Source: Sulfitobacter indolifex | GTDB taxonomy: Bacteria > Pseudomonadota > Alphaproteobacteria > Rhodobacterales > Rhodobacteraceae | NCBI RefSeq assembly: GCF_022788655.1 | Contig: NZ_CP084951.1 | Location: 1,302,001-1,366,000 of the forward strand | DNA: 64,000 nucleotides | Direction: 5' to 3' | Shown: positions 20,602-29,860 of the stretch, piece after piece | Layout of the letters: the number at the start of each line of letters is the position of its first letter | Position numbering within the stretch: position 1 is the stretch's first letter | Notes under the pieces: generated by a model | The model's input: the letters and a program-made list of their open reading frames with translations, nothing else | Databases searched by the model: none | Told to the model about the DNA's origin: nothing | Program-made: the position numbers and the translations under genes

Positions 20602-22041
20602 TCAATCGTTAGACCAGCCTGAAACGGCTTTGACTTCGCAGAAGTCCTCGATGCCCCAGACGCCACCTTCGCGCCCGTTGCCCGAGCGCTTCATGCCGCC
20701 AAAGGGCGCCCCTGCGCCACGGCTTTCGCCGTTCATCTCAACCATGCCCGACCGCAGCTTGGCCGCCAGACGGTTGCGCCGCGCGCCGTCGGTTGATTGG
20801 ACGTAGTTCGTCAGGCCGTAGACCGTGTCATTGGCCATCTCGACGGCTTGGTCTTCGTCCTCGAACTTCATGATCGACAGGACCGGGCCAAAGATTTCTT
20901 CGCGCGCGATGGTCATGTCGGGGGTCACATCCGCAAAGACCGTGGGTTTGACATAAAAGCCGCGGTTCAGATGCTCAGGCCGTCCGGTGCCACCGGCGAC
21001 AAGGCGCGCGCCTTCGTCGATGCCTTTTTGGATCAGGTCTTGGATCTTGCCCCATTGTGCTTCGTTCACGACCGGGCCGATGTGGCGGCCTTCTTCGCTG
21101 GCGGGGCCAACTTCGACCTTATTGGCGACTTCGGCGGCGGTCTCAACCGCTTGGTCATAGACGCTGGCTTCGACGATCATCCGGCTTGGCGCGTTACAGC
21201 TTTGGCCAGTGTTGTTCATCATATGCAGCACGCCGCGCTTCACGGCCTTGTCGTCGGCATCAGCAAAGACAAGGTTCGCGCCTTTGCCACCAAGCTCCAG
21301 ATGGACCTTTTTCAGCGTATCCGCCGCGTTCTTGGAAATCGCAATGCCCGCGCGGGTGGAGCCGGTGAAGCTCACCATATCCACGTCCTCATGGCCGGTT
21401 AGCGCGGTGCCAACGGTCATGCCATCGCCGTTCACAAGGTTGAAAACACCGGCGGGGAAGCCTGCCTCATCCATCATCTCGGCGAAAACCACGGCGCTCA
21501 GCGGGCTTTCCTCGGACGGTTTCAGCACCATGGTGCAGCCAGCGGCGACGGCAGCGCCCACTTTCAGCATCACTTGGTTCATCGGCCAGTTCCAAGGCGT
21601 GATCATCGCCACAACACCAACCGCTTCATGGATGATCCGGTCGTTTGGCGCGTGATCACCCAGCGGCTTCACGAATTTGAAATCTTTGGCGGCTTTGATG
21701 AAGTTCTTCAGGTGGCTATAACCTGCACCCCATTGCGAACTGCGCGCCAGATCGATGGGTGCGCCCATCTCGGTGCTGATCGCTTGGGCCATATCCTCGG
21801 TCCGGGACTTATAGACCTCGGCCAGTTTCTCCATCAGCGCGATGCGCTCTTCGGGGGCGGTGGCCATCCAGCCGGGTAGGGCGGCCTTGGCAGCGGCAAC
21901 GGCGGCGTCCACGTCCTTGGCCCCGCCGAGCGAAATCACGGTGCAGGGCTCTTCGGTCGAAGGGTTGATGACCTTATGTTCGCTGCCCTCAAGGGGTGCG
22001 ACCCATTTGCCGTTGATATAAAAATCACGTTTTTCGATCAT
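20602..22041 (-). CDS. NAD(P)-dependent aldehyde dehydrogenase
   Basis: A 479-residue aldehyde dehydrogenase oxidising an aldehyde to the acid. The catalytic Cys282 lies in NNTGQSCNAPSR, the general base Glu249 in LELGGKGANLVF, and the nucleotide-binding motif is SFTGSTRAG; the PWNWPMNQ and EEIFGPVLSI motifs are also intact. The closest general class is the broad-substrate family of gamma-aminobutyraldehyde, betaine-aldehyde and coniferyl-aldehyde enzymes. Substrate cannot be inferred; the gene stands alone with its own terminator. Confidence 0.93.
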   Translation of the reverse strand: MIEKRDFYINGKWVAPLEGSEHKVINPSTEEPCTVISLGGAKDVDAAVAAAKAALPGWMATAPEERIALMEKLAEVYKSRTEDMAQAISTEMGAPIDLARSSQWGAGYSHLKNFIKAAKDFKFVKPLGDHAPNDRIIHEAVGVVAMITPWNWPMNQVMLKVGAAVAAGCTMVLKPSEESPLSAVVFAEMMDEAGFPAGVFNLVNGDGMTVGTALTGHEDVDMVSFTGSTRAGIAISKNAADTLKKVHLELGGKGANLVFADADDKAVKRGVLHMMNNTGQSCNAPSRMIVEASVYDQAVETAAEVANKVEVGPASEEGRHIGPVVNEAQWGKIQDLIQKGIDEGARLVAGGTGRPEHLNRGFYVKPTVFADVTPDMTIAREEIFGPVLSIMKFEDEDQAVEMANDTVYGLTNYVQSTDGARRNRLAAKLRSGMVEMNGESRGAGAPFGGMKRSGNGREGGVWGIEDFCEVKAVSGWSND

Positions 22042-22235: not shown

Positions 22236-23372
22236 TTAATCCTGCGCCGGGAACTTAATCTCAACGCAGAACCCGTCTTGGCCTTCGACCTTTAGGGTCG
22301 CTTCATGCTGGAAGGTCAGCGTGCGGATCATCCGCCAACCCAGCGAGTCTGACCGTTCGGGCCGTTTGGCATCGTCGGGCAGGCCAACCCCGTCATCATA
22401 GACCTTAAGCGTCAGCCCTTCGCCATCCATTTGGCTGACCTCAATAGTGATCACACCTTTGTCGCGCCCTTTAAAGGCGTGTTTATAGGCGTTGGTGATC
22501 AGCTCCCCAACGATGAGCCCGATATCGACTGCCAGTTTGTTGTCCATCTTGAGGCTGGGACAGATCAGCTTGATGCTGATGCTCTGGCGCTCTCCGGTAA
22601 AGGCGCGTTCGGCGTTTTTGGTGACCTCATCCAACATATCCGCCAGATCAAGGTCGGTGCTATCGGTGGCGCGTTGCATCAACTCATGCGCTTTGGAGAG
22701 TGAGCCGACACGGGTTTCCAGCTCGCGCAGCACTTGGCGCGTCTCATCCGCCTTGGCTTGGGTCTTGCTCATCCGGATCAGCGCCACGATCAGCGCAAGG
22801 TTGTTGCCAGTGCGGTGGTGGAGCTCTTGCATCAGAAGGTCGCGGTCGGCGATGCCTTCGCTCAGCTCGCGGTTCTGCTCGGTCAGCGCGGCGGTGGGGT
22901 CTTTGGCGTTGTAGGCCTCTAAGGCTGCCAAAGCGTCCGCTTTGATTTGCTCTACCGCGCCTTGCGGCTCTGGCAGCAAGAACTCCGCATGGACGCGGGT
23001 GCCCTCTTGGCCAGAGTCCACATCAAAGCGCGCCGCGATACGTTGCACGCCGCGCAGACCCAGACCCAAGCCCGTCTCAGACACGATATCGCGCGACGGA
23101 TCGAGCTTTTCCTTCTCGATCCCGCGCCCCTGATCGATCACCGTCAGCCCAAGGGCGGGCTTGCCGTTAACCTCGGTCAGTGAAAACCGCGCCCGGCCTT
23201 TCTGGCCATGCTCAATCGCATTACGCCCCAATTCCACAGCGGCGGTCACGGTGCGTGTGCGCTCAAAAGACGTAAAGCGCATCGCTTCGGTCAAGGTCAG
23301 CGCAATCTGGCGCAGCGCCGCAATATCGCTGCCCTGTTCGAGGTTCACTGAGGCAAGGTTTGTGGCTTTCAT
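22236..23372 (-). CDS. RsbT-like ATPase domain fused to a HisKA_2 histidine kinase
   Basis: A 378-residue soluble protein with two GHKL-type ATPase modules. Residues about 1-135 resemble an RsbT/RsbW-type serine kinase domain (N-box ELGRNAIEHG with Asn51, DQGRGI, GLGLGLRGV). Residues about 175-378 form a HisKA_2-type histidine kinase: dimerisation box QELHHRTGNNLALIVALIR with candidate phospho-His186, N-box ELITNAYKHAF and DDGVGLP. No membrane or PAS segment is present. It is the last gene of the rsbRST operon, joined to the preceding one by a TGATG junction. It is likely the output arm: the Rsb-type part would dock with stressosome partners and the kinase part would pass the signal to a response regulator encoded elsewhere. 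Inference, but the two modules are plain. Confidence 0.85.
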   Translation of the reverse strand: MKATNLASVNLEQGSDIAALRQIALTLTEAMRFTSFERTRTVTAAVELGRNAIEHGQKGRARFSLTEVNGKPALGLTVIDQGRGIEKEKLDPSRDIVSETGLGLGLRGVQRIAARFDVDSGQEGTRVHAEFLLPEPQGAVEQIKADALAALEAYNAKDPTAALTEQNRELSEGIADRDLLMQELHHRTGNNLALIVALIRMSKTQAKADETRQVLRELETRVGSLSKAHELMQRATDSTDLDLADMLDEVTKNAERAFTGERQSISIKLICPSLKMDNKLAVDIGLIVGELITNAYKHAFKGRDKGVITIEVSQMDGEGLTLKVYDDGVGLPDDAKRPERSDSLGWRMIRTLTFQHEATLKVEGQDGFCVEIKFPAQD

Positions 23373-24379
23373 CAGTCAGCATCTCGCGCAATGCGGATCA
23401 CCGCGATAGAGGCATCATCACGCCCGCGGAAGGCCCGGTCGAGCAGGAAACCAGCAATTAAAAGCGGGGATTTCCAAAGCAGGCCTTGAGGCAAATAGCT
23501 GTCGCGCAGGGTTTTTAAGCCATCGCTGTGCAGGATGAGCAGATCATTCGGCACAAGATCAAAGCTCTCTTCATAGCCGCGGGTGGCGCGTGCGCCGATG
23601 CGCCCGTCGCGAACGGGCAGGCGTTTGATCTCTCCGTCACGTACCCGCAGGGTCGCGATATTGCCCAAGGCGGCATAGCGCAGCTCCATCTGCGGATGGG
23701 CGATATGCACAAGGGCCGCAACTGCGCCGCGCTTGCCAATTAGCTGTTCGGTTACCTCATACATGACCGCGCCGGGTTCGCTGTTAAAGCTGCGCGACTG
23801 CGACACGGCATCTGTCACTTCAAGCGAGGCGGCCGCGGCTTCGGGGCCGTGGCCCAACCCGTCGCAAAGCAAGATGTCAGTGGCATTCGGCGTCTGCCGC
23901 AGCAGATAGTCGTCGCCGCATTGATCTTCGTTTGGGTGGCAAACCCGCAGGGCCACGGCCTCAACCCCGTGGGTCGGGCGGGGGGCGTCCTTGGCAAAGC
24001 TGCACACGATGGTGGTGCCAACCTCAGGCCCGCTAAAGATATCAAAAGCGCTCGACAGGCGGCGGATTGCCCCAAGGCCCAGCCCGGCGGAATCGCCGCT
24101 GCTCATGCCGTCTTGGAACATGTGATCCATATCGCTAATGCCGGGGCCGCGATCGGTAAAGATCATCAAGATTACGTCGCCCTTGCCCTCTGCCGGGGCG
24201 TCGATCAAAACCCGACCCTGTTCGGCGTAGCGCAGGATATTGGTCGTGGCCTCAGTGGCAACGATGGCCAGTTCATCGATCCTGAGCTTAGGCCAATCGT
24301 GCCGTGCAGCCAGACTGCGCGCCGCACGGCGGACCACGGCGATGGCGCTTTGATCCTGTACTTCGACCCATTGTCTCAT
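23372..24379 (-). CDS. RsbT-like ATPase fused to a PP2C/SpoIIE-type phosphatase
   Basis: A 335-residue cytosolic fusion. Residues about 1-130 form a GHKL serine-kinase-like domain (TEATTNILRYA with Asn47, DRGPGI, GLGLGAIRRL). Residues about 140-335 form a PP2C-type phosphatase with metal-binding motifs CGDDYLL, LLCDGLGHGPEAA (Asp173), HSDGL and RDDASIAVIR, as in RsbX. In Bacillus stressosomes RsbX removes phosphate from RsbR and RsbS to reset the sensor; a similar role is expected here. The ATG overlaps the rsbT stop (ATGA). Confidence 0.88.
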   Translation of the reverse strand: MRQWVEVQDQSAIAVVRRAARSLAARHDWPKLRIDELAIVATEATTNILRYAEQGRVLIDAPAEGKGDVILMIFTDRGPGISDMDHMFQDGMSSGDSAGLGLGAIRRLSSAFDIFSGPEVGTTIVCSFAKDAPRPTHGVEAVALRVCHPNEDQCGDDYLLRQTPNATDILLCDGLGHGPEAAAASLEVTDAVSQSRSFNSEPGAVMYEVTEQLIGKRGAVAALVHIAHPQMELRYAALGNIATLRVRDGEIKRLPVRDGRIGARATRGYEESFDLVPNDLLILHSDGLKTLRDSYLPQGLLWKSPLLIAGFLLDRAFRGRDDASIAVIRIARDAD

Positions 24380-24816
24380 AGATTTACACTCATCAACACG
24401 CTGGTGCCCCCGCCGACGGCGGTGCGGATTTCAAATTTCTTGGCCAGCCGCTTTGCACCCCCCAAGCCACGGCCAAGCCCGCCGCCCGAAGTATATCCAT
24501 CGCTCAGTGCCAATTCTATGTCTTCGATCCCCGGACCCTTGTCCCAACAGACCACGCTTAGCTGCTTGCGCCCCGGATCGACATAGATTGAAAATTCGCC
24601 CCCGCCAGCATGAACGATCGCATTGCGCGCGATTTCACTAACTGCGGTTGCAAAACGTGTCACAGTCAGCGCCGAGGCACCGTGTTCTTTCATGTAGCGC
24701 GCAACGGCTTGGCGCACTGTCACCGCGTCGCCGCTGGTATTTAACTTGAACTGAGAGAGAAGAACCTGCGCCCCAAGGTCCCTTTCGTCAAACGCGTCGT
24801 AGCTGGGCAAGGGCAT
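24376..24816 (-). CDS. rsbT: RsbT-type serine/threonine protein kinase
   Basis: A 146-residue GHKL kinase, the switch protein of the stressosome: on stress it phosphorylates RsbS and RsbR and is released. Motifs: AVSEIARNAIVHAGGG (Asn65 of the N-box), CWDKGPGIEDI, and GGGLGRGLGGAKRL. Its start lies 29 bases inside the rsbS 3' end. In Firmicutes free RsbT activates the phosphatase RsbU; no RsbU is encoded here, so its target is probably one of the two downstream fusion proteins. Confidence 0.9.
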   Translation of the reverse strand: MPLPSYDAFDERDLGAQVLLSQFKLNTSGDAVTVRQAVARYMKEHGASALTVTRFATAVSEIARNAIVHAGGGEFSIYVDPGRKQLSVVCWDKGPGIEDIELALSDGYTSGGGLGRGLGGAKRLAKKFEIRTAVGGGTSVLMSVNL

Positions 24817-25141
24817 GTGTCAGGCTTAACGCGGTGCGGATCTCTGGCAGATACATGCCAAGCTCGACCAGCGTGACCGCCACGGTGGGGCGCATGCCGA
24901 CAACATAGGTATCTGCTGCCAGCAGGCGAGATATCCCCGCCAGCTGCGCGATCACACGTCCTACAAAAGTGTCCACGATCTCAAGCGCTGAGATATCAAG
25001 GATCACCCCGTCAATGCGGTTCTCGGATATTTTGGTCGACAACCGGTCTTGAAGCTCCAAGATCTCGGTGTCCGTGATGTCATCCTGTATCGAAACGAGG
25101 AGCGCATGTTCGACAAGATTGATCGGCGTGACACCAGCCAC
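24788..25141 (-). CDS. rsbS: RsbS-type STAS-domain stressosome scaffold
   Basis: A 117-residue single STAS domain protein. The phosphorylatable loop reads LDISALEIVDTFVGR, with Thr58 at the place of Ser59 of Bacillus RsbS, so phospho-transfer is possible but onto threonine. VGMRPTVAVTLVELG matches the second conserved STAS stretch. The start is GTG, one base after the rsbR stop, with a GAGG site inside the rsbR end. It forms the stressosome core with RsbR and holds RsbT in the unstressed state. Confidence 0.92.
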   Translation of the reverse strand: MAGVTPINLVEHALLVSIQDDITDTEILELQDRLSTKISENRIDGVILDISALEIVDTFVGRVIAQLAGISRLLAADTYVVGMRPTVAVTLVELGMYLPEIRTALSLTHALAQLRRV

Positions 25142-25142
25142 C

Positions 25143-26018
25143 TTATTGATCCTCAGTCTTCTTGATCACGTAGCCTACGGTCAGCAGCGCGTCCGACAGG
25201 GCGGTGCGAATGCTGGACCGGGTGGAAACAGTACCGACATCAATGCCAAGCTGCACCATGGTTTGGGCGATCATCGGGCTGATGCCGCTGATGATACATT
25301 CAGCACCCATCAGACGCACGGCTGCAGCGGCGCGCAAGAGGTGCTGTGCCACTTGCGTATCGACCGTGCCAACGCCGGTGATGTCCATGATGACCACTTC
25401 GGCCTGACGCTCAAGAATGGTCTGAAGCAGATTCTCCATCACCTCTTGGGCGCGGGCGGAATCCAGCGTGCCGATCAGCGGCAGCGTCAGGACGCGGTCC
25501 CAAAGTTCGACCACAGGGGTCGACAGTTCCAGCATCTCTTGGCGCTGGCGATCAATGATCTGCTCACGCTCGACGATGAAGATTTCGTTGGTATAGATTG
25601 CGAAAGCATCGACCAGACGGGTCACCAGCATCACATCGCGGATCAGCACGCCTTGATCAACGTCCTGCAGCGATTCCAACCGTTTGAAAAGCGGGGTTTT
25701 CAGCGCCAAAACGAACGTTGCCATCTCGGTCGGGGTCACACCGCGGTTGACCCGCTCGCGGCTGACATCGGCCAGAACGGCGCGCAGATCGTCCCACTGA
25801 TTGTCGTCGAAATCGAAATCTTCGCCCGTGACGCCATCGCGCACACCTTTCGAGAAGGCTTTGAGCAGTTCGCGGTTCTGGTTCCGGCTTTCGGCGTCCG
25901 AAAAGAGGTCAGAACGCTTTACGCCTTCTTTGACCTGCGTTCCCAGCCACTCCTCGATGATCCCTTTAAAATCGGTGTCGAGAACAGTCAGTATATTCGC
26001 CGTAGCAGATTGCGGCAT
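25143..26018 (-). CDS. rsbR: RsbR-type stressosome sensor (RsbRD-like N-domain + STAS)
   Basis: A 291-residue protein. The N-terminal about 150 residues are helical and resemble the RsbRD-type sensory domain (RVNRGVTPTEMATFVLALK), with no haem, flavin or PAS signature. The C-terminal STAS domain (about 165-285) retains VIMDITGVGTVDTQVAQHLL and ISGISPMIAQTMVQLGI; Thr221 and Thr253 are the candidate RsbT targets. First gene of the operon. It is the only RsbR paralogue in the window; the signal is unknown. Confidence 0.92.
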   Translation of the reverse strand: MPQSATANILTVLDTDFKGIIEEWLGTQVKEGVKRSDLFSDAESRNQNRELLKAFSKGVRDGVTGEDFDFDDNQWDDLRAVLADVSRERVNRGVTPTEMATFVLALKTPLFKRLESLQDVDQGVLIRDVMLVTRLVDAFAIYTNEIFIVEREQIIDRQRQEMLELSTPVVELWDRVLTLPLIGTLDSARAQEVMENLLQTILERQAEVVIMDITGVGTVDTQVAQHLLRAAAAVRLMGAECIISGISPMIAQTMVQLGIDVGTVSTRSSIRTALSDALLTVGYVIKKTEDQ

Positions 26019-26185: not shown

Positions 26186-26227
26186 TGAAAAAGGGGCAGC
26201 ACCGGCGTTTTTACCTGATGCTGCCCC
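26186..26227 (-). terminator. intrinsic terminator after proV
   Basis: GGGGCAGCA-N17-TGCTGCCCC, a 9-pair stem, is followed on the minus strand by CTTTTTC. It ends the proXWV operon 33 bases past the proV stop. Confidence 0.8.
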
Positions 26228-26259: not shown

Positions 26260-27306
26260 TTATTCTGCGGCCTCGCCGGGGTGGCGCGGCACGAGCGCGC
26301 GCACCAGATCACGCATGTGCAGCACGCCAACCTGACGGCCCTCACGCATGACGCGGTAGTTGTTTGTCGTATCGCCCTCTGACACGGCGATGATCGATTC
26401 CAGCGTATCGTCGTAATCGACCTCACCCGCCACATCGGTCGGCGGCACATCGGTCTTCTCCATGACAGAGCGGACCCGCAGCACCCTTGCGCGGTTGATG
26501 TCGCTGACGAAGGCTTCGATATAGGGGTCGTTCGGGTTCAGCAGGATGTGCTGCGGCTCGCCCTGTTGAACGATGAAGCCGTCTTTGAGGATCACCAGAT
26601 GGTCCGCCAGTTTCAGCGCTTCATCCAGATCGTGGGTGATGAAGATTACCGTCTTGTGCAACTCCTCCTGCAACTCGATCAGCAGGTCCTGCATGTCGGT
26701 CCGGATCAATGGATCGAGCGCGGAAAACGCCTCGTCCATCAGCATCACGTCAGAGTTCGAGGTCAGCGCCCGCGCAATGCCCACACGTTGCTGCATCCCG
26801 CCCGAAAGCTGTGCAGGGAACTGCTCACCTTGACCTTCCAGCCCCACACGGTCGAGCCACTTGGTGGCCTCGGCGGCGTATTTCGTGCGTGTTTTGCCTT
26901 CGATCTCCCAGCTTAGCCCTGCGTTTTCCAGCACGGTCCGGTGCGGCAGCAGGGCGAACTTTTGGAACACCATCGACATTTCGTGCTTACGCAGTTCCCG
27001 CAGGCGACGCTCGTTATAATCAAGAATGTTCTCACCGTTCATGATCACTTCGCCCGCCGTGGGGTCAATGAGCCGGTTGAGGTGCCGGATCAGCGTCGAT
27101 TTGCCCGACCCCGACAGCCCCATGATCACCGTGGTCTTGCCCGCAGGCATATCCACGTTGATGTTATTGAGGCCGAGCACATGGCCGGTTTCAGCCTGAA
27201 GATCGGTCTTGCTCATGCCGCCGCGCACCTTCTCCAACGCGCCCTGCGGGTCGTCGCCAAAGATCTTATACAGGTTGCGAACGCAGATTTTGATATCGTC
27301 TGTCAT
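26260..27306 (-). CDS. proV: glycine betaine/choline ABC transporter ATPase
   Basis: The ATP-binding subunit of a quaternary-amine uptake system. 348 residues from the ATG MTDDIKICV; a GTG 12 bases upstream, overlapping the proW stop, is an alternative. Walker A GLSGSGKST, signature LSGGMQQRVGIARAL, Walker B VMLMDEAFSALD and switch His in FITHDLDEAL are intact. The C-terminus (about 275-348) carries a CBS-like regulatory part, as in OpuAA/ProV, which senses ionic strength. It pairs with ProW and ProX. Confidence 0.94.
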   Translation of the reverse strand: MTDDIKICVRNLYKIFGDDPQGALEKVRGGMSKTDLQAETGHVLGLNNINVDMPAGKTTVIMGLSGSGKSTLIRHLNRLIDPTAGEVIMNGENILDYNERRLRELRKHEMSMVFQKFALLPHRTVLENAGLSWEIEGKTRTKYAAEATKWLDRVGLEGQGEQFPAQLSGGMQQRVGIARALTSNSDVMLMDEAFSALDPLIRTDMQDLLIELQEELHKTVIFITHDLDEALKLADHLVILKDGFIVQQGEPQHILLNPNDPYIEAFVSDINRARVLRVRSVMEKTDVPPTDVAGEVDYDDTLESIIAVSEGDTTNNYRVMREGRQVGVLHMRDLVRALVPRHPGEAAE

Positions 27307-27314
27307 GGCTGGTC

Positions 27315-28340
27315 TCACTTCTGCGATGCATTGATCCGCGCGAGCGCGGCTTTGGTGACCCGGTCAAGGATGATCGCCAGAAGGACGATCCCCAGACCCG
27401 ACAGAAGACCGACGCCCAGCTCAAGGCTCCGGATACCGCGCAGGACAAGCACACCGAGACCCGGGGCCGAGACCAGCGAGGCGATGACCACCATGGCGAG
27501 GCTCATCATGATGGTCTGGTTCACACCGGCCATGATGTTGGGCAGGGCCAGTGGGATCTGCACCTTGAAAAGCTTTTGACGGTTGGTCATGCCAAAGGCA
27601 TCGGCGGCCTCAATCACGTCTTGATCAACCAGACGAATGCCCAAGTCAGTTAGACGCACCACCGGGACGATGGCGTAAAGGATGATCGCGATGCCGTAGA
27701 GTTTCGGCTCAGTCACCGAGAACAAGAAGATCAGCGGGATCAGATAGACAAAGGGCGGTAGCGTTTGAAGCATGTCCAGCACCGGAATCATGCTGCGTTG
27801 GACCCGGTCACTGCGCGCCATGGCGATGCCAATGGGCACGCCCAAAAGCACACAGATAAAGGCGCAGACAAAAATAATCGCCAGCGTCTGCATCGTGTGG
27901 TCGTAAAAGTCGATAAACGCCAGAAAGCCAAAGACCAGCGCCACCAGACCCACCAGCTTGAGCGAACGGCCCACCGCATAGGTGATCAGCATCAAGAGCG
28001 GGATCATGATGAACCACGGCACCGCTTGCATGATCCACAGCGCGTTTTCTAAGGCCCAGCTTAGCGGTTGGGTTATCGGATCGACCACGACCTTCAAACT
28101 GTCTTTGATCGCAAGAAACCCTTGCTCCAACCCTTGGGTCAGATCGCGCGATTGGGGGATCGCGTCGCAGCTGTCGTGCAATGCGTCAAGCGAAGGGAAG
28201 GGCGTATCCCAAAGGGTCGTGTCCGCGTCGCCGCCTGCTTGCCCCATAAGGTCGGCCATGGAGCTGAGCCCACCGCCCTGGTCGTCGCCGCACCAGCCGC
28301 GCAGGCCGAGCGTGTCAAAGAAGTTGTCGTAAGTTGCCAT
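27315..28340 (-). CDS. proW: glycine betaine/choline ABC transporter permease
   Basis: A 341-residue inner-membrane permease. A hydrophilic N-terminal tail of about 100 residues precedes the membrane core, as in ProW. The ABC-permease coupling loop (EAADAFGMTNRQKLFKVQIPLALPNIMAGVNQ, about residues 240-272 in part) is present with the ending LDRVTKAALARI. It lies downstream of proX, after a 250-base gap with a strong hairpin, and just upstream of proV. Confidence 0.94.
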   Translation of the reverse strand: MATYDNFFDTLGLRGWCGDDQGGGLSSMADLMGQAGGDADTTLWDTPFPSLDALHDSCDAIPQSRDLTQGLEQGFLAIKDSLKVVVDPITQPLSWALENALWIMQAVPWFIMIPLLMLITYAVGRSLKLVGLVALVFGFLAFIDFYDHTMQTLAIIFVCAFICVLLGVPIGIAMARSDRVQRSMIPVLDMLQTLPPFVYLIPLIFLFSVTEPKLYGIAIILYAIVPVVRLTDLGIRLVDQDVIEAADAFGMTNRQKLFKVQIPLALPNIMAGVNQTIMMSLAMVVIASLVSAPGLGVLVLRGIRSLELGVGLLSGLGIVLLAIILDRVTKAALARINASQK

Positions 28341-28539
28341 CTGTCGCTTTCCCGGCCCGGATCAGGCCGTTACCTTAACGAGAGCGCCGTTCAACATGCG
28401 ATGTGCACGGAACAGTCTGCTCTCACGAGAGGCTGCAAATCTACACCTATGTCCTTGCAAAGAAACTGCGGAGCGCGGCCTAAGCCCGCGCGCAGTGGGT
28501 GTGAAAAGACGTAAGTCCTGCCGCCGTTTATGAAACAAT

Positions 28540-28571
28540 CGGGCGGGAACCTCAAAAAAGGTCCCCGCCCG
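28540..28571 (-). terminator. proX-proW intercistronic hairpin
   Basis: CGGGCGGGAACC-N8-GGTCCCCGCCCG, a 12-pair stem with one G-T-type mismatch, begins 18 bases after the proX stop. The minus-strand tail ATTGTTTC is T-poor, so it should stop only part of the transcription and stabilise proX mRNA, giving more binding protein than permease. Confidence 0.65.
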
Positions 28572-28589
28572 AAAATCTGTTATACGGTC

Positions 28590-29558
28590 TTACTGTTCAA
28601 GCAGCTTGGACAGGTTGCCGCGCGCGTCGTCGCTCAGCCAATCGGCCCAGACGTCTTTGTTGTTCTGCAAGAAGTAAACAGCCGCTTCCTCGTTGGAGGC
28701 GTTGCTTTCACCTTGCCAAGCCAGCAGCTTGCTCATCTCGTCGGTCTTGAAAGTGACGTTGCCGATGAATTTCGCGATTTCAGGATTGTTGTCGTGGAAA
28801 TCCTTGGTCATCACGGTCAGAACCGGTGCCGTTGGGAAGGCCGACGGCTTGGGATCGGGATTGTCGGCGTTCTGGTTTGCGGTATGCGCGGCTTCGTCAT
28901 ACGCGCCCATGTCGACGCTGGTCATGTCGAATTTACCCAGCGGCGTGGTGGGGCCCCAGTAGTAGCCGAACCATGGTTCTTCGCTTTCATAGGCCGAAGC
29001 CATGGAGGTCGACAAAGTCTCGCCCGAGCCGTGGTTGAAGACTTCGATGCCGTTGCCTTCGAGGTCAAAGGCGCGCGCGAGGTTGTCGTTTACCAAGCGG
29101 CAGCCCCAGCCATCGGGGCAGTTGTTGAACATGCCACCGACCAGTTCGGGGTTTGCCAGAATGCCGTCGAGGGTTGTCAGCTCAGGATGCGCTTCGGCCA
29201 GATAGGTGGGGATCCACCAGCCTTCGACACCACCGGGGTCGAGCACGCTTGTCAGCTCAACGATCTTGCCGTTCTCTTTCAGCTTCTTGTAGGCATCACC
29301 GGCAGAGTTGGTCCACATTTCCGGCACGATGTCCGGCTCGTTGTTTTCCGACAGCGAAGTCACGGCGGGCGTGGTGTCAGACGGCACAGTGGTCACGTCG
29401 CAGCCGTAGCCCTGAACCAGCAGGAATTCGGTGACGGCGGTGACGATCTGTGCCGAGGCCCAGTTCATTTCCGCGATCGAGACTTCGCCGCAGTCCTGAG
29501 CGGCAGCAGCCATGGGGGTCGCGACGGCGAAAACCGTGCCAAGCAAATAGCGTTTCAT
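28590..29558 (-). CDS. proX: glycine betaine/choline-binding periplasmic protein
   Basis: A 322-residue OpuAC/ProX-family binding protein with signal peptide (MKRYLLGTVFAVATPMAAAAQ). The Trp-rich ligand-binding positions are visible in VPEMWTNSAGDA, GGVEGWWIPTY and EPWFGYYWGPTTPLGKF, whose aromatic residues form the cage for the quaternary amine. An AGGAG site 8-9 bases before MKRYLLG rules out the reading 11 codons longer. First gene of proX-proW-proV; osmoprotectant or choline uptake is the expected role. Confidence 0.95.
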   Translation of the reverse strand: MKRYLLGTVFAVATPMAAAAQDCGEVSIAEMNWASAQIVTAVTEFLLVQGYGCDVTTVPSDTTPAVTSLSENNEPDIVPEMWTNSAGDAYKKLKENGKIVELTSVLDPGGVEGWWIPTYLAEAHPELTTLDGILANPELVGGMFNNCPDGWGCRLVNDNLARAFDLEGNGIEVFNHGSGETLSTSMASAYESEEPWFGYYWGPTTPLGKFDMTSVDMGAYDEAAHTANQNADNPDPKPSAFPTAPVLTVMTKDFHDNNPEIAKFIGNVTFKTDEMSKLLAWQGESNASNEEAAVYFLQNNKDVWADWLSDDARGNLSKLLEQ

Positions 29559-29860
29559 AGTGATTTCTCCTTTATTGCATCCACAGTGCAACGCAGGCGC
29601 GCACCGCTGATCTTTGAGCCCGTTGCATCATGAAAAAGCCAGTCACGTCATAGGACGCGGCAGCTCTAAATGGCCGGGTTTGCTGGAGATAAGAAAGCAG
29701 GTCGGTCGCCCATGTGCAACACGATTGCCGGGCGCAAGGCGCAAGTTCGGGGCACCGCGCCAAGATGGGCGCGGTGAAAAAGCATGCAGCACCTATAAAC
29801 GAAGCGCTATATTTATAAGGCCATTCGCACCGCTTTCAGCAGAGGCGCGATTTGGGCTGA
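29559..29860. other. non-coding region between DUF1127 gene and proX
   Basis: Holds the presumed proX promoter near its left end and a perfect 9-pair hairpin CACCGCGCC-AAGATG-GGCGCGGTG (29753-29776), about 85 bases past the end of the minus-strand DUF1127 gene. The minus-strand tail has no T-run. No gene is seen. Confidence 0.5.

Follow-up and report, generated by a model that had tools for sequence, protein, structure and literature searches.

A five-gene stressosome module in Sulfitobacter indolifex with a fused histidine kinase as its likely output and the PhyR-NepR-EcfG system as a candidate endpoint

To what does a stressosome pass its signal when no SigB cascade is encoded beside it? 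This question is raised by an operon in the 64,000-nucleotide stretch of DNA from the marine bacterium Sulfitobacter indolifex analyzed here (hereafter the window; NZ_CP084951.1, positions 1,302,001 to 1,366,000), in which five minus-strand genes, running from 26018 to 22236, encode RsbR, RsbS, RsbT, a phosphatase fusion and a kinase fusion in that order. Our analysis suggests that these genes form a complete stressosome module, of a kind known mainly from Bacillus, with an output kinase that is tethered to it through an RsbT paralogue and would feed the PhyR-NepR-EcfG general stress response, a reading to which we give a probability of about 0.5. At the sequence level it is based on the genes, the fusion, the catalytic residues, the phosphosites, the gene order, the PhyR/NepR/sigma factor locus of the host and the phyR genes of the Skermanella group. 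An earlier note on this DNA had proposed that stress is handed over from a Ser/Thr partner switch to a His-Asp relay, and the sequence evidence agrees with that idea.

The identities of the five genes and their arrangement as an operon are near certain. Adjacent genes overlap by 1-29 bp or are spaced by 1 bp, and the Pfam matches in all five proteins exceed the curated cut-offs. The rsbR gene (25143..26018) encodes a sensor domain at residues 12-115 (73.7 bits) and a STAS domain at residues 170-260 (58.0 bits). The sensor is RsbRD_N, which refines the plain label RsbR, and the STAS part resembles solved stressosome RsbR (7o0i, 2.1e-36; 7b0u, 9.1e-29). RsbS (24788..25141) consists of one STAS domain (38.2 bits) and resembles solved stressosome subunits over its whole length (6jhk, 5.5e-21; 6qcm, 2.5e-19). 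The rsbT gene (24376..24816) overlaps rsbS by 29 bp and encodes a GHKL Ser/Thr switch kinase (HATPase_c_2, 50.1 bits). Judged by sequence, the stressosome set of a sensor-bearing RsbR with a C-terminal STAS domain, a single-STAS RsbS and a single-domain GHKL RsbT is therefore present. The phosphatase fusion (23372..24379) joins an RsbT-like ATPase (residues 10-125; HATPase_c_2, 47.2 bits) to a SpoIIE/PP2C domain (residues 166-288; 46.0 bits). The kinase, 378 amino acids long (22236..23372), combines an RsbT-like ATPase, a long helix, a HisKA_2/HWE DHp domain and HATPase_c (HATPase_c_2 72.3, HisKA_2 59.5, HWE_HK 36.1 and HATPase_c 77.7 bits). The open reading frames and domains bear out the five genes that the earlier note had described, as well as its statement that RsbU, RsbV, RsbW and a sigma factor are not encoded next to them; the neighbors are a proV gene and an aldehyde dehydrogenase gene. 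The SigB cascade of RsbU, RsbV, RsbW and SigB is thus not encoded with rsbRST at the window locus.

The residues expected to carry the Ser/Thr switch are in place (alignment and model numbering equals the protein numbering used here minus 1, as the alignment lacks the first Met). Thr184 and Thr221 of RsbR line up with the Thr residues phosphorylated in Bacillus and Listeria RsbR, and both positions are kept in 25/25 HisKA_2-type rows. Thr58 of RsbS stands at the place of Bacillus RsbS Ser59; this position is Thr in 22 of the 25 HisKA_2-type rows and Ser in three, those of the Skermanella group, while it is Ser in 11/11 other rows. The predicted phospho-acceptors of both STAS proteins are thus retained, that of RsbS as Thr in the window. 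In Listeria innocua, RsbS Ser56 is the target, Glu45 of RsbT is the potential catalytic base, and RsbT is released upon stress (PMC9237128). The N-box and G1 residues of RsbT (Glu, Asn, Asp and two Gly) occur in 37/37 rows. In the phosphatase, the Asp residues of the PP2C motifs are conserved in 27/27 rows. RsbX is a single-domain PP2C and this protein has an RsbT-like head fused to it; we nevertheless regard it as a probable RsbX-like enzyme that would reset the switch.

How could the kinase be connected to the stressosome? A domain tree of 101 rows (29 kinase heads, 35 phosphatase heads and 37 RsbT) placed all 29 kinase heads in one clade (support 99/95) and all 35 phosphatase heads in another (100/100), with a 100/100 branch grouping the kinase heads with RsbT. 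Glu47, Asp80, Gly84 and Gly105 are present in 101/101 rows. The tested GHKL residues are intact in 28/29 kinase heads, the exception, at other sites, being the HisKA-type variant of genome G470; the third lid glycine is Ala in 31/35 phosphatase heads. A like head is carried by HisKA-HATPase-REC kinases in G257, G470, G646 and G609. The presence of the same head on this other kinase class indicates that it goes with the stressosome and not with one kinase type, and it has the appearance of a portable input module. Based upon these observations, we somewhat favor a coupling of the kinase to the stressosome through its RsbT-like head.

The remainder of the kinase has the features of an HWE/HisKA_2 enzyme. 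Its DHp domain (residues 183-255, 22608..22826) contains the presumed phospho-acceptor His186 (22815-22817) in the motif HRTGN, an HRxxN motif, and the N-box of its C-terminal HATPase_c domain (residues 283-377, 22242..22526) reads ELITN, with Glu in place of the first Asn. The second H-box His, the Arg and both Asn are invariant (27/27). The RsbT-like head aside, a Pfam scan detected no sensor domain in the kinase. We consider it likely, from sequence comparison, that this kinase is the output of the stressosome.

The arrangement of the module is conserved. RsbR, RsbS, RsbT, phosphatase and kinase are encoded in one order on one strand in the window and in 26/26 related loci, a count that is partly circular in that most of the loci were found via the kinase. 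The co-occurrence that the earlier note had suggested looking for in related genomes was thus recovered, and since the order is kept in all 26 loci, the gene set is not a chance assembly. These loci stem from Rhodobacterales, Sphingomonadales, the Skermanella group and one further genome. The proteins nearest to the window kinase are from Sulfitobacter (94% to a cluster named for Sulfitobacter sp. KE29). The module is nonetheless patchy, because the kinase occurs in 7/198 family genomes, host included, and was not found at E 1e-30 in the only other sampled genome of the genus. Scanning the contigs of named genomes gave at least 16 full-length relatives (L017-L032) among the 80 loci listed. When the class was searched with a profile built from the kinase alignment, 2/385 genomes were returned, a figure that may be an undercount with at most five candidates scored per genome and is not used as a frequency. 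Plasmids also carry the kinase: relatives were present in 60 plasmid records, 58 of them from Phaeobacter, and both plasmids inspected, pPGA1_262 of P. inhibens DSM 17395 and one from Salipiger sp. CCB-MM3, have the five-gene module, its genes annotated as STAS, ATP-binding or SpoIIE-type proteins. In P. inhibens DSM 17395 the five genes are PGA1_RS18475-18495 on the 262-kb plasmid (NC_018291.1, 79498-83316).

A sampling through RsbR bears on whether the last gene belongs to the module. RsbRD_N matched in 12/385 class genomes, in two of which (G349 and G556) no R-S-T was found. The ten adjacent R-S-T loci found by RsbRD_N alone include seven with an RsbT-like/kinase fusion after the phosphatase, of the HisKA_2 type in G000, G075, G543, G292 and G401 (in the last, the contig breaks off within the kinase) and of the HisKA type in G257 and G470. 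The contig of G374 (locus L111) includes the RsbT-like head and stops short of any kinase domain; at the R-S-T locus of G378 the kinase is of the HisKA-REC type and lacks an RsbT-like head, and at that of G479 there is none. The expectation that orthologous loci retain the last gene therefore held for these seven, failed for G378 and G479, and is obscured by the contig end in G374. At the G470 locus (L110:2630-7332), rsbR appears to be split into two open reading frames and residues of the N-box and G1 are missing from the kinase head, which may reflect either gene decay or an assembly error. In other alphaproteobacteria (L117, L170-L174), RsbR-S-T lies beside receiver and hybrid-kinase genes and the RsbT-like/kinase fusion was not seen; these loci are a separate lineage of the module.

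With regard to where the kinase would send its phosphate, its family is informative. HWE/HisKA2 kinases are reported as the coordinators of the general stress response in alphaproteobacteria (PMC12148442). Cytoplasmic Paks that have HRxxN, the PhyR-pathway motif also carried by the window kinase, phosphorylate SdrG as well as PhyR in vitro (PMC5898713). The earlier note had suggested searching the host genome (4,498,570 bases in 8 contigs) for PhyR, NepR and EcfG, and PhyR, NepR and an EcfG-like sigma factor are all encoded there: PhyR scores 342 bits in its family model (cut-off 240), NepR scores 55.3 bits, and nepR adjoins an ECF sigma gene with a PhyR_sigma2 match (locus L016). We call this sigma factor EcfG-like from its place next to nepR; no model names EcfG. 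A closer connection is seen in the Skermanella group, comprising L032 (G673, Skermanella stibiiresistens), G543, G670, G671 and G672, where in 5/5 genomes phyR immediately precedes rsbR on one strand, with a gap of 15-16 bp. Near-full-length PhyR-type matches number three in each of these genomes. Among the 14 PhyR placed in a tree, the two operon copies included cluster with the PhyR of the host, G292, G401 and G378 (100/100), and a second clade holds five further Skermanella-group copies together with the PhyR of G609 and G646. The PhyR-NepR-EcfG endpoint, which the earlier note had offered as attractive but unproven, has thus gained comparative support from the host genes and the Skermanella-group phyR. 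On these comparisons we lean towards PhyR as the endpoint, and more strongly so for the Skermanella group.

Several observations weigh against this reading. A HisKA_2 kinase is encoded beside the host PhyR (L016) and is PhyK-like, below the cut-off of that model, so a candidate partner for PhyR is already at hand. Of the 22 other HisKA_2-type loci, none has a full-length PhyR in its flanks (less than 600 bp upstream in L017 and L114), and the phyR linkage is limited to one genus and one event; a search of the order of G292 gave no new linkage and reached two genomes, both already known. NepR was detected in 16/16 distinct fusion-bearing Rhodobacterales genomes compared with 89/198 in the family sample, where it occurs in 7/7 fusion-bearing genomes and 82/191 others (Fisher p 0.0032). 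This co-occurrence is weak evidence for a PhyR link, because diverged NepR proteins, such as that of R. sphaeroides with 25% identity (PMC5830050), probably escape the Pfam model, and because the fusion-bearing genomes are related to one another. Pfam NepR was also not found in the Pacificimonas genomes G591 and G292, both of which have a PhyR_sigma2 match. As to the head, the structure comparison drew on a Foldseek list and speaks to fold only, and an RsbT-like fold is no proof of docking to STAS proteins. A separate proposal, that genomes with the HisKA_2 type have the PhyR system and those with the HisKA type lack it, was dropped: NepR occurs in 26/28 HisKA_2-type and 2/4 HisKA-type genomes, and the PhyR of G609 and G646 belong to the second clade.

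Taken together, we predict the following mechanism. RsbR and RsbS would make the STAS scaffold, to which RsbT, and probably also the phosphatase and the kinase through their RsbT-like heads, would bind. On stress, RsbT, and probably the heads as well, would phosphorylate Thr184 and Thr221 of RsbR and Thr58 of RsbS, and the RsbT-like/PP2C protein would reset these sites. The kinase head, freed or changing state, would act through the long helix to switch the HisKA_2 core, which would autophosphorylate on His186. The phosphate would then pass to PhyR, directly or via a single-domain receiver, and phosphorylated PhyR would remove NepR from the EcfG-like sigma factor. The kinase would in effect be docked on the stressosome as a released or switched client, with stress running through Ser/Thr partner switching, a His-Asp relay and a second partner switch. 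The stressosome and PhyR-NepR-EcfG, thought to be separate inventions of Gram-positives and of alphaproteobacteria, may in this way be joined as one pathway by a fusion of an RsbT paralogue to a Pak-like kinase, a proposal that we make tentatively, at slightly less than even odds.

The stressosome might also control the kinase while its phosphate is received by a different response regulator, with PhyR not being the endpoint outside the Skermanella group. This is unlikely in our estimation. In its favor, the window has no adjacent response regulator, the Salipiger sp. CCB-MM3 plasmid encodes a single-domain receiver (L196:1463-1831) upstream of rsbR at a distance of 520 bp, another lies about 4.3 kb upstream in Tranquillimonas, and the HisKA-type variants have REC domains of their own. 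Against it stand the known role of HWE/HisKA2 kinases in the PhyR pathway (PMC12148442) and the phyR gene directly before the module in the Skermanella group. Moreover, the Salipiger and Tranquillimonas receivers are SdrG-like in being single-domain and could still lead to PhyR; that of Salipiger could be an adaptor between kinase and PhyR.

Alternatively, the kinase could be a regulator of the stressosome, its head serving as a second Ser/Thr kinase for RsbR and RsbS and its histidine kinase part importing an additional signal. The GHKL residues kept in 28/29 kinase heads would suit this, as would the same kind of head on the neighboring phosphatase, since both heads may merely belong to STAS-directed enzymes. 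However, the His, Arg and Asn of the DHp domain are invariant (27/27) and yet no Pfam sensor domain is there to import a signal, and the exchange between HisKA_2 and HisKA-REC cores fits an output role better; we consider this explanation improbable. More improbable still is a kinase whose main activity would be to dephosphorylate PhyR or its adaptor, by which the stressosome would damp the general stress response. Two-component kinases are often bifunctional and the sign of the signal is not readable from sequence, but no specific sequence feature points to a phosphatase role, and the C-terminal ATPase domain is well over its Pfam cut-off. Our preferred reading is still a stressosome-controlled kinase that would feed PhyR.

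Such a system would resemble several known ones in part. It shares with the Bacillus and Listeria stressosome (with RsbX) the RsbR and RsbS STAS proteins with phosphosite residues, the RsbT-type kinase and the PP2C phosphatase. In contrast to these bacteria, the window locus has no adjacent RsbU/V/W/SigB, the RsbS acceptor is Thr, the phosphatase bears an RsbT-like head, and the output is a histidine kinase fused to such a head. Vibrio vulnificus and related RSTX modules have a similar rsbRSTX-type order followed by downstream signaling proteins, of which eleven types are described, including HisKA/REC phosphorelays (e.g. in Ruegeria) and RsbU_N proteins (PMC9237108). The Vibrio-type modules have a globin RsbR and a single-domain PP2C (PMC9237108), whereas here we find RsbRD_N, a two-domain phosphatase and an RsbT-like domain, not RsbU_N, fused to HisKA_2. 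Published precedents exist both for two-component proteins downstream of a stressosome module and for RsbU_N kinases in rsbT operons (PMC9237108, PMC12143880); for VvRsbT and its downstream two-component protein, no positive interaction result is reported in the available part of PMC9237108. The RsbU_N diguanylate cyclase of Moorella, which is under RsbT, likewise has its output moved to a non-sigma effector; there RsbT acts on the RsbU_N domain of the effector, while here the effector owns an RsbT-like domain (cited in PMC12143880). With the Pak/PhyK HWE/HisKA_2 kinases that feed SdrG and PhyR, the window kinase shares the HRxxN core and a genome encoding PhyR, NepR and an EcfG-like sigma factor (PMC5898713, PMC12148442), but an RsbT-like domain, encoded with a stressosome, replaces the sensor. 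Rsb-type partner switching is also known in Rhodobacterales from RbaV-RbaW-RbaY of Rhodobacter capsulatus, which are RbaV/W/Y genes and not an R-S-T-kinase module (PMC3999984); phyR of this species was tested only for gene transfer agent production, with no effect (PMC3999984). The available parts of PMC3999984 and PMC4598750 treat the stressosome and the PhyR system side by side and unlinked, that of PMC6530869 mentions the stressosome just by way of analogy with a kinase complex containing the HWE kinase LovK, and no stressosome-PhyR link was found in that of PMC4976288. Neither the RsbT-like/kinase fusion nor the stressosome-PhyR link was found in the accessible portions of the open-access literature searched; an earlier depiction is possible.

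The surroundings of the operon hint at an osmotic theme. Upstream lies a proV-like gene of a choline/betaine-type transporter (26260-27318, same strand, 241 bp from the operon) and downstream an aldehyde dehydrogenase gene (20602-22041). The module sits between proV-type transporter and aldehyde dehydrogenase genes in the window (20602-22041, 26260-29591) and in the Sulfitobacter loci L017 and L018. In the gap between proV and rsbR, an inverted repeat noticed by eye (26188-26227; GGGGCAGCA...TGCTGCCCC, with a T run and a loop of 17, longer than the terminator scan allows) looks like a terminator that would part the transporter from the stressosome operon. EcfG-type promoters have the consensus GGAAC-15 to 19-CGTT; this pattern was found neither within 600 bp upstream of 27 operons nor at the host phyR-nepR locus, so that its absence from the operons carries no information. 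Scans for sigma-70 promoters and terminators gave results near shuffled levels.

In conclusion, the module in the window is real and conserved, and it varies a known theme of stressosome-linked kinases. For a Gram-negative stressosome without an adjacent SigB cascade, the coupling would here lie within one protein and a candidate endpoint can be named, and the cultured bacterium Phaeobacter inhibens DSM 17395 also carries the module. Our findings suggest that RsbT-like domains can be exchangeable input modules of kinases, and the related genomes suggest that the five-gene module may feed the general stress response of the class.

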